Source: an uncultured Rubrobacteraceae bacterium
GTDB lineage: Bacteria > Actinomycetota > Rubrobacteria > Rubrobacterales > Rubrobacteraceae
Direction: 5' to 3'
DNA length: 28,810 bases
Assembly (NCBI GenBank): GCA_902806105.1
Contig: CADCVI010000143.1
Location: 1-28,810 of the forward strand
Part shown: positions 16,337 through 18,960 of the stretch, one piece after another
Position numbering within the stretch: position 1 is the first letter of the stretch
Layout: each line of letters starts with the position of its first letter
The notes under the pieces: model-generated
The model's input: only the letters and a program-made list of their open reading frames with translations
What the model was told of the DNA's origin: nothing
Databases searched by the model: none
Program-made: the position numbers and the translations under genes

Positions 16337-16975
16337 CTATTTTCTAGTGAGGGCGCGCTCGACGGCAGCCTCGATGCGTCCGCCGTAGGGCTGGGCGCCG
16401 GTTATGACCTCGGCCTCGGAGAGCTCGGCCCCGGCGGGCGTGACGAACATCGTCGGGACGCTGCTCACGCCGAGCTTGCGCGAGAGCTCCTCGTCGGCGA
16501 GCACCTTCTCCGTGTAGCGGTCCTCCGCGAGCGCGGTGCGTAGCTCGTCGAGGTCGAGGCCGACGGGGGCGGCGACGTCGAGGATTACCTCCACGTCTCC
16601 TATGTCCCGGCCGTCCTCGAAGAAGGCCCTGAAGAGGGCGGTGTGCATCTCATCGTAGAGGCCCCGTTCGCGGGCGAACTCGGCGGCCTCGAGCGCCTTG
16701 CGGCTCCTCGGCTGGACGGGCGGGAGGCGGAGCTTCATGCCCAGAGCCTCGGCCATCGGGTAGACGGAGGCGTTCCAGACGCGGTGGAGGTACTCGCCGT
16801 CAGGGTCGAGGGTCGGGATGGGATCGGGCCTCAACTCGTAGGCCCGCCAGTCCACCTCGACCCTGTCGCCGTACTCCTCCTTCACGCGCGCGAGGTCCGG
16901 CTCCTCCAGATAGCAGAACGGGCAAACGTAGTCGCTGAATACCGTGATCCTGGCTCGCTTCTCGCTGTTCTCCAT
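16337..16975 (-). CDS. DsbA family oxidoreductase (FrnE-like)
   Basis: A 212-residue thioredoxin-fold protein of the DsbA/FrnE group. The active site is CPFC (residues 18-21) in ITVFSDYVCPFCYLEEP, followed by the helical insertion. The cis-Pro loop GVSSVPTMFV and the C-terminal ITGAQPYGGRIEAAVERAL are family hallmarks. There is no signal peptide, so it is cytosolic, as in FrnE, which is a cytosolic disulfide isomerase linked to oxidative-stress tolerance in Deinococcus. ATG 16975 has GGGAG 6 bases ahead and is preferred over an in-frame start 27 bases upstream. It follows the OsmC-family gene, separated by a hairpin. Confidence 0.88.
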   Translation of the reverse strand: MENSEKRARITVFSDYVCPFCYLEEPDLARVKEEYGDRVEVDWRAYELRPDPIPTLDPDGEYLHRVWNASVYPMAEALGMKLRLPPVQPRSRKALEAAEFARERGLYDEMHTALFRAFFEDGRDIGDVEVILDVAAPVGLDLDELRTALAEDRYTEKVLADEELSRKLGVSSVPTMFVTPAGAELSEAEVITGAQPYGGRIEAAVERALTRK

Positions 16976-17010
16976 GAGATCTCCCGAAGACGTCTCTTGC
17001 ACGACGACGA

Positions 17011-17033
17011 GCCCCCGGTTCGAATTCGGGGGC
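17011..17033 (-). terminator. Hairpin between the OsmC and DsbA-family genes
   Basis: GCCCCCG (17011-17017) pairs with CGGGGGC (17027-17033) around a 9-base loop that itself contains TTCGAA. It lies in the 95-base gap after the OsmC stop, a likely terminator or attenuator. Confidence 0.5.
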
Positions 17034-17070
17034 CCGTGCTGGGGAAGATTCTACCGTCTCCCCGGGGGTC

Positions 17071-17535
17071 TTAGGCGGGGGTGAAGTCGAGCTCGCTCGT
17101 GATCTCGATGCTGCCCTTCAGGGACCGGGCGACGGGGCAGGAGTCGGCGTAGACGCCGAGCACGCGCTCTACCTTCTCCCTGTCGTCCTCGCTGGCGGTG
17201 AGGCGGAAGACCTGCTTGATCCTCTTTATCACCAGCACCTTCCCCTCGGCCTCGACCTCGCCCGTCGCATCTGCGTCCAGGCTCTTGATCTCCACTTGAC
17301 GCGCTCCCAGCGCGCCGGCAAAAGTGCCGAGCAGTCAGCCGCCGGTGGCGGCGACGACGTAGTCGAGCGTGGAGGCGTGCGGCTCCTCCGCCCCCGGCTC
17401 GACGCCGTAGTGCTCGGCGACCTCGCTGTGGACGCCGAAGAGCACCGGCTCCTCCTCCCCCGGTACGTAGGCCCGGCGGACCTTGCCCGCCACCGGCTCC
17501 AGCTTCACCTTCGAGACGTACTTCACTTCTGTCAA
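17071..17535 (-). CDS. OsmC-family peroxiredoxin-like protein with in-frame TGA: candidate selenoprotein
   Basis: Read through one TGA (17337-17335), the frame gives a continuous 154-residue OsmC/YhfA-type protein. Residues 1-66 (MTEVKYVSKV ... DYVVAATGG) are the N-terminal half; the next residues LLGTFAGALGAR continue the central helix; the rest ends in ADSCPVARSLKGSIEITSEL, with the second conserved Cys at 133. The TGA is residue 67, exactly where OsmC proteins carry the peroxidatic Cys (family pattern '..a.GC......'), and the 66-residue distance to Cys133 is the family spacing. A hairpin suited to selenocysteine insertion follows the TGA. OsmC proteins reduce organic hydroperoxides using thiols. 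The start is TTG 17535 with AGGAGGA 5 bases ahead, 12 bases after the aldo/keto reductase stop, so the two are one operon. Alternatives are a nonsense mutation or a sequencing error. Confidence 0.8.
17298..17316 (-). promoter_or_regulatory. Putative bacterial SECIS hairpin
   Basis: On the coding (minus) strand GGCGCGC (17316-17310) pairs with GCGCGTC (17304-17298), 7 pairs including one G-U, around the loop UGGGA (17309-17305). The loop begins 26 bases after the UGA. Known rules for bacterial SECIS elements, as I recall them, ask for a small apical loop with a G in the first two positions, about 16-37 bases from UGA; all are met. Confidence 0.6.
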
Positions 17536-17547
17536 AACGTTCCTCCT

Positions 17548-18537
<990 letters not shown>

Positions 18538-18606
18538 GGCACCCTCCCCACGTCGCCGAACGATCCCGGCAAGTCTACATAACTTTCGGAGATCCTCAGC
18601 CCGAGG

Positions 18607-18960
18607 CTAGCGGGTCGTCTCCTCCGGGAGGCGCCCCATCACGGCGCGCAGGCCGAAGTCGCCGGGGAGGTTGGAGACGAACCGGCGGAAGCCGAACGTC
18701 CTTCTCACGTCGAGAACGACCCTGCGGCCAGCGAGGTGCGGGAAGATCGCCCGCGCCGCGTAGACGGGCTCCTCACCCTTGAGCCGGACGAGGCCCCTAC
18801 GCTTTCGAGCACCGTCCTCCCTCATGGCGTAGAGGCTCGCCTCACCCGCGCCCGCGCAACACATGGCCAGACGGAGCCAGTCGAGGACGAGGGCCTCGCC
18901 GGGGCGCAGGGCGTCACGCGCCGACGGGGTGAGGCTGATATCGAACTCGTACTCTTTCAT
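18607..18960 (-). CDS. Hypothetical protein with CC motif, leaderless
   Basis: A 117-residue protein I do not recognise. It starts KEYEFDISLTPSARDALRPG, followed by DWLRLAMCCAGAGEASLYAM with a vicinal Cys pair near residues 34-35, and an Arg-rich C-terminal half (AGRRVVLDVRRTFGFRRF). No signal peptide or membrane segment is seen. ATG 18960 lacks a ribosome site but has TACGAT 6 bases ahead, the leaderless arrangement. It precedes the aldo/keto reductase by 70 bases on the same strand and may belong to that redox group. The Cys pair could bind metal or form a disulfide; this is only a guess. Confidence 0.6.
   Translation of the reverse strand: MKEYEFDISLTPSARDALRPGEALVLDWLRLAMCCAGAGEASLYAMREDGARKRRGLVRLKGEEPVYAARAIFPHLAGRRVVLDVRRTFGFRRFVSNLPGDFGLRAVMGRLPEETTR

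Follow-up and report, generated by a model that had tools for sequence, protein, structure and literature searches.

An OsmC-family gene in the DNA of an uncultured Rubrobacteraceae bacterium very probably encodes a selenoprotein, as judged from sequence, with selenocysteine (Sec) placed at an in-frame TGA codon. The gene lies in contig CADCVI010000143.1, in a stretch of 28,810 nt that was analysed as a whole and is referred to here as the window. We consider with good confidence that it belongs to a distinct OsmC subfamily that is mostly unannotated and mostly Sec-containing. This group, characterized by the motif U[LM]xGT, is probably a second OsmC selenoprotein subfamily, widespread in Rubrobacteria, Chloroflexota, Gemmatimonadetes, other Actinomycetota and further phyla. 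It would be nearly always a Sec protein, a kept selenoenzyme rather than an occasional Cys-to-Sec switch, and hidden by annotation as an 87-aa fragment or as a protein with Trp at the site. The Sec reading had been put forward in an initial annotation made from the letters of the window; it is supported by the conservation of the TGA in relatives, by a SECIS-like hairpin whose codons are frozen at synonymous sites, and by the Sec machinery of most closely related genomes. The gene adds a selenoprotein group to Rubrobacter, which is described as highly radiation-resistant (PMC8146576) and in which an antioxidant based on selenium would merit attention, and likewise to Chloroflexota and other phyla.

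The reading frame and its neighbourhood

The OsmC frame runs on the minus strand from a TTG at 17535 to a TAA at 17071 and comprises 66 codons, the TGA and 87 more codons (Table 1). The initial annotation had given exactly the interval 17071..17535, with the strand unstated, and its proposal that two pieces join in one frame across a single TGA to give a full OsmC protein holds. The readthrough translation of 154 codons matches the Pfam OsmC family (PF02566) with 52.9 bits against a gathering cut-off of 27.5, and the AlphaFold2 model of the window protein shows an OsmC fold with a mean pLDDT of 95.8. The frame also bears out the proposed active site, in which TGA codon 67 takes the position of the first active-site Cys and the sole Cys codon of the frame, codon 133, follows 66 residues later. 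When the window was scanned for in-frame TGAs that bridge two coding-like stretches, each of at least 40 codons and with coding-like GC at third positions, two places were found, namely the OsmC gene and a place antisense to the frame of an ABC-transporter permease. For the OsmC gene, the aligned loci described below exclude a TGA that arose by chance.

Table 1. Features of the OsmC locus in the window (positions 1 to 28,810)
Feature	Position	Strand	Remarks
Aldo/keto reductase gene	17548..18537	-	Pfam PF00248, 272 bits; 12 nt between its end and the OsmC start
AGGAGG, likely ribosome-binding site	17542..17547	-	6 nt ahead of the TTG
OsmC-family gene, read as a selenoprotein CDS	17071..17535	-	TTG start, 154 codons, Sec at codon 67, TAA stop
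In-frame TGA, codon 67, taken as selenocysteine	17335..17337	-	TGA in 80/80 relatives at the same column
SECIS-like hairpin, 8 bp stem, loop GGG	17298..17316	-	Loop starts 26 nt after the TGA; synonymous constraint at codons +1 to +3 and +7 to +12
Cys133, presumed resolving residue	17137..17139	-	Cys followed by Pro/Phe 66-72 residues past the Sec codon in 81/81 rows
DsbA-like thioredoxin-fold gene, downstream ORF	16337..17002	-	Pfam PF01323, 103 bits; true start may be internal

The aldo/keto reductase gene and the OsmC gene are probably on the same transcript, and a search of the coding strand from 16950 to 18700 revealed nothing resembling a terminator. A GC-rich inverted repeat (CCCCCG...CGGGGG) without a T run lies at 16976-17070, between the OsmC gene and the DsbA-like gene. 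The OsmC and DsbA proteins of the window are 90% and 93% identical, respectively, to those of a Rubrobacter metagenome-assembled genome (MAG; L001), which places the window in Rubrobacter or a near relative of it. In the first 15 loci from relatives, several of them cut short by contig ends, the aldo/keto reductase gene is directly upstream in three (L001, L002 and L004) and at most 2.5 kb upstream in six more, and a DsbA-like gene is directly downstream in five. The minus-strand cluster of the three genes (16337-18537) recurs whole or in part in Rubrobacter-type loci, and these recurring neighbours suggest a redox cluster in Rubrobacter. One contig titled as an Acidobacteria MAG (L010) has OsmC, DsbA and FecB-like genes matching those of the window at 71%, 80% and 75%; it is probably a misbinned Rubrobacter contig.

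Conservation of the TGA codon and of the nucleotides behind it

Relatives were sought in genomes by a contig scan using six search patterns that left out the Sec position itself; 99 were found and 80 kept, and the TGA count covers these 80. At identities of 42-90%, the aligned codon is TGA in all 80, while the downstream protein stays conserved. The initial annotation had proposed to look for the same TGA in related strains and had held that a sense codon other than Cys would speak against Sec; none of the 80 loci has another sense codon, and Cys at this site appears only in relatives at or below 57% identity among the 120 database matches listed. The record titles of the relatives include Rubrobacter, Chloroflexi, Dehalococcoidia, Caldilineaceae, Gemmatimonadetes, Acidimicrobiia, Solirubrobacteraceae, Geobacteraceae and Poribacteria. 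The majority are MAGs, and one named strain, Qaidamihabitans albus YIM S01255, is among them.

The same picture was obtained from genomes sampled by lineage. In the class Rubrobacteria, 27 of 39 genomes are carriers, and 26 of the 27 have the TGA: 25 show a long match with one TGA, G070 has the gene in three pieces, and G071 has a fragment that is missing the site. In Chloroflexota there are 17 carriers in 251 genomes drawn, all with TGA; in Actinomycetota there are 45 in 396, with TGA in 40, including every match above 158 bits, and the other five have stop-free matches only, all of 157.7 bits or less. These samples overlap: many of the 80 loci come from genomes in the Rubrobacteria set, and many genomes of that set were drawn again with the Actinomycetota.

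The TGA might instead be a nonsense mutation of TGC or TGT, in a pseudogene or through a sequencing error. TGA is indeed one base away from either codon, and G070 shows that a frame-broken copy exists in Rubrobacteria, but a mutation of this kind is already refuted by the conservation of the TGA and of the protein behind it, and 79 of the 81 genes (the window gene and its relatives) are free of other internal stops; we give it practically no credence. The two exceptions, L020 (5758-6204) and L061 (6001-6459), each have a second in-frame TGA past the Sec codon, which is either an error or a second recoded site. In G070 (contig C1, 3821617-3822031), one of the three matched pieces carries the TGA, and the gene has been broken by decay or by sequencing errors. 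G072 has a degenerate second copy with TGA, TAA and TAG (contig C346, 3342-3796) besides a TGA-only copy elsewhere in the genome.

The hairpin of the window, GGCGCGCU-GGG-AGCGCGUC, with 8 bp and -11.8 kcal/mol, fits the published bSECIS model as described in PMC13188914 (stem of 4-16 bp, loop of 3-9 nt having G in the first two, spacing 16-37 nt, energy at most -7.5 kcal/mol). A scan with this model passes 60/81 genes, whereas 567/8,727 codon positions taken as controls from these genes pass, and in 52 of the 81 the loop is at exactly the place it has in the window. The scan fails 21 genes, 20 of them with a different hairpin form. Another hairpin form, marked by GCC CTT codons, is present in 20 genes; among its 17 distinct sequences the pair 23-35 forms in only 53%, and covariation is therefore not claimed.

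The codons behind the TGA are also unusually constant at synonymous positions. In the Rubrobacter-type set of 16 genes, synonymous identity reaches 1.0 at +1, +3, +7, +8, +9 and +11 (expected 0.37-0.38), 0.85 at +10 and 0.88 at +12, and returns to about expectation at +13 to +16; the expectation ignores kinship, so it is the contrast with neighbouring codons that counts. In 15 of the 16, codon +10 is the rare GCA or GGA (9% and 8% of their families), and codon +12 is CGT, with a usage of 15%, likewise in 15. The 65 other genes have a synonymous identity of 0.52-0.65 at +7, +8, +9, +11 and +12 versus 0.25-0.32 expected. In the Rubrobacter set, identity is also raised outside the hairpin, at -17, -14, -7, -2, -1, +5, +6, +17, +19 and +21.

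Folding energy gives a weak signal: relative to synonymous shuffles, the mean z is -0.76 and -0.90 after the TGA and -0.07 to -0.87 elsewhere, and in the window, z is -1.00 against dinucleotide shuffles, 33 of 200 of which are at least as stable. It fails to single out the SECIS region clearly because the GC-rich background folds anyway; the hairpin scan and the codon conservation do single it out. In a test of the longest stem against synonymous shuffles, the window reaches 8 pairs, matched by 4.6% of shuffles, and the 81 genes average 6.6 versus 5.2, with several genes no better than their shuffles. The stem varies so little that it shows few compensatory changes. A search of the window against Rfam at gathering scores gave no match.

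These frozen codons bear on a further reading, in which the TGA is a true stop and translation reinitiates at a downstream start codon to yield two products. Public records that give the downstream 87 aa alone, such as P0113 of Rubrobacter indicoceani, are compatible with it. However, neither half would retain both active-site residues, the break would fall, according to the structural model, within the central helix of one domain, and codons frozen past a stop would serve no purpose; we regard two products as very improbable.

Selenocysteine machinery and database records

The genes for Sec synthesis and insertion are common in genomes that carry the OsmC gene. Matches over the cut-off were found for selB in 42 of 50 carrier genomes versus 2 of 14 controls, for selA in 40 versus 1, and for selD in 46 versus 2, and the SelD match has an in-frame TGA of its own in 41 of the 50. 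For tRNA-Sec, 42 of the 50 pass the cut-off, 39 of them with at least 62 bits; the weakest matches (47-49 bits) may be other tRNAs, and 5 of the 14 control genomes also pass. Among the 27 Rubrobacteria carriers, selB was seen in 20, tRNA-Sec in 20, selA in 23 and at least one of the three in 24; in the remaining G004, G006 and G009, none of the three was seen, and a SelD with TGA is present. In Chloroflexota, selB was not seen in 2 of the 17 carriers. The association of the OsmC gene with selB is uninformative because selB is common anyway (carriers versus non-carriers, 20/27 versus 9/12 in Rubrobacteria and 15/17 versus 179/234 in Chloroflexota).

From these relatives we infer that the organism of the window has the Sec machinery and inserts Sec. 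The genome of a relative at 89% identity (G002) has selA, selB, selD and tRNA-Sec, and in that of a relative at 90% (G001), an assembly of many short contigs, selA alone was seen. In G057 and G066 all matches lie on one long contig; the OsmC gene is present, and selA, selB and tRNA-Sec are side by side. Qaidamihabitans albus (L069, genome G046) has selB, selA, tRNA-Sec and selD within 3.5 kb on one contig; as a named isolate that carries both the gene and the whole Sec machinery, it makes the claim directly testable. For Rubrobacter xylanophilus, five selenoproteins have been listed (PMC1794560), with OsmC unnamed in the main text of that paper, and a tRNA-Sec has been reported (PMC5330540). 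SelD and the other Rubrobacter selenoproteins share genomes and TGA decoding with the OsmC protein, but they are different proteins.

A protein database search gave 214 matches, and among the 120 listed, to which the counts refer, the residue at the site is W in 96, Cys in 14, Gly in one and Ala in one, and eight end or start there. The initial annotation had expected automatic annotation to cut the gene, and these eight do stop or begin at the site; the R. indicoceani record, which starts past the TGA and is 87 aa long, is the downstream part alone. The simplest account of the W rows is a TGA translated under a table in which it means Trp. Together, the 8 cut and the 96 Trp entries among the 120 matches suggest that standard pipelines still hide conserved selenoproteins.

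Taken at face value, the 96 W entries would favour a TGA decoded as another residue, such as Trp in code 4, whether by reassignment or by near-cognate suppression. But the W rows are known as protein only, and in all 80 relatives read at the DNA level the codon is TGA, so that the W looks like TGA rendered as Trp in translation. Cys occupies the site in more distant relatives (the 14 rows above), and the carriers mostly have Sec machinery, including the TGA-containing SelD. There is only a very slight chance that Trp or a similar residue, rather than Sec, is inserted.

Predicted role and relation to known OsmC proteins

If the codon is read as proposed, the bSECIS hairpin just past the UGA would recruit SelB with Sec-tRNA, and the ribosome would insert Sec as residue 67, midway along the central helix of the OsmC fold. 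Sec67 would then most likely attack and reduce a peroxide or a related oxidant; in general, Sec raises reactivity. Cys133 would subsequently form a selenenylsulfide with Sec67, and a dithiol donor (a lipoylated protein, thioredoxin or the neighbouring DsbA-like protein) could restore Sec67. The peroxidase chemistry and the reductant are less sure than the insertion of Sec.

The chances of the predicted peroxidase activity are about even. Ohr enzymes have a catalytic triad of an attacking Cys, an Arg and a Glu, plus a second Cys, and in XfOhr Glu51 precedes Cys61 by ten residues (PMC5962072). In the present alignment, position -10 is Leu in 78 and Ile in 3 of the 81 rows. The group accordingly differs from the Ohr/OsmC lipoyl-dependent peroxidases, which have Cys and the catalytic Glu, in having Sec and Leu/Ile. 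The YhfA subfamily (COG1765), to which we liken it by description only, likewise has two redox residues and no catalytic Glu, but the window group has Sec. According to PMC8945050, YhfA proteins lack the Arg and Glu and are uncharacterised. Because of this description and of the Leu/Ile at the Glu position in 81/81 rows, a peroxidase role is only modestly favoured over others, and the same two points favour a selenoprotein that is not a peroxidase but a YhfA-type thiol/selenol protein with another substrate, to which we assign slightly less than an even chance. Against such a protein, both redox residues are kept, Asp is invariant one place on (position -9, 81/81 rows), and an Arg is at +12. 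Several conserved Arg are at most candidates for the catalytic Arg that Ohr/OsmC peroxidases have near the active site.

The initial annotation had mentioned OsmC-like selenoproteins from sequence surveys. These exist, with the motif UxxT: three sequences were counted in the Sargasso Sea survey (PMC1088965) and five in GOS (PMC2398784), and two reviews have a single entry apiece (PMC9312934 and PMC13188914, the main text of the latter naming OsmC once), but they belong to another subfamily. They share with the window protein the OsmC domain and Sec at the first active-site Cys. In U[LM]xGT, Gly is at +3 and Thr at +4 in 81/81 rows, and the Thr of UxxT would be three after the Sec. The NCBIfam family NF041052 (OsmC_like_Se), which from its name and motif appears to be the family of the Sargasso and GOS surveys, matches the window protein with 35 bits, below its curated cut-off of 95 bits; 26 of 50 rows of A1 match it at E <= 0.001, none better than the window protein (E 1.2e-8). 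Literature searches of freely accessible main texts found no paper on the U[LM]xGT group.

In a FastTree phylogeny of 81 Sec, 14 Cys and 3 outgroup rows, two Cys rows are basal, nine form a clade of their own, and three fall singly among the Sec rows with weak to moderate support. The carrier genome G049 has, on another contig, a TGA-bearing match to NF041052 of 111 bits, with GF-U-LLT versus GG-U-LLGT in the window protein; the two proteins match each other weakly (E 0.001 over 27 residues; profile probability 30%). G045 and G049 have seven and six matches to the NF041052 profile, respectively, and probably hold several OsmC paralogues.
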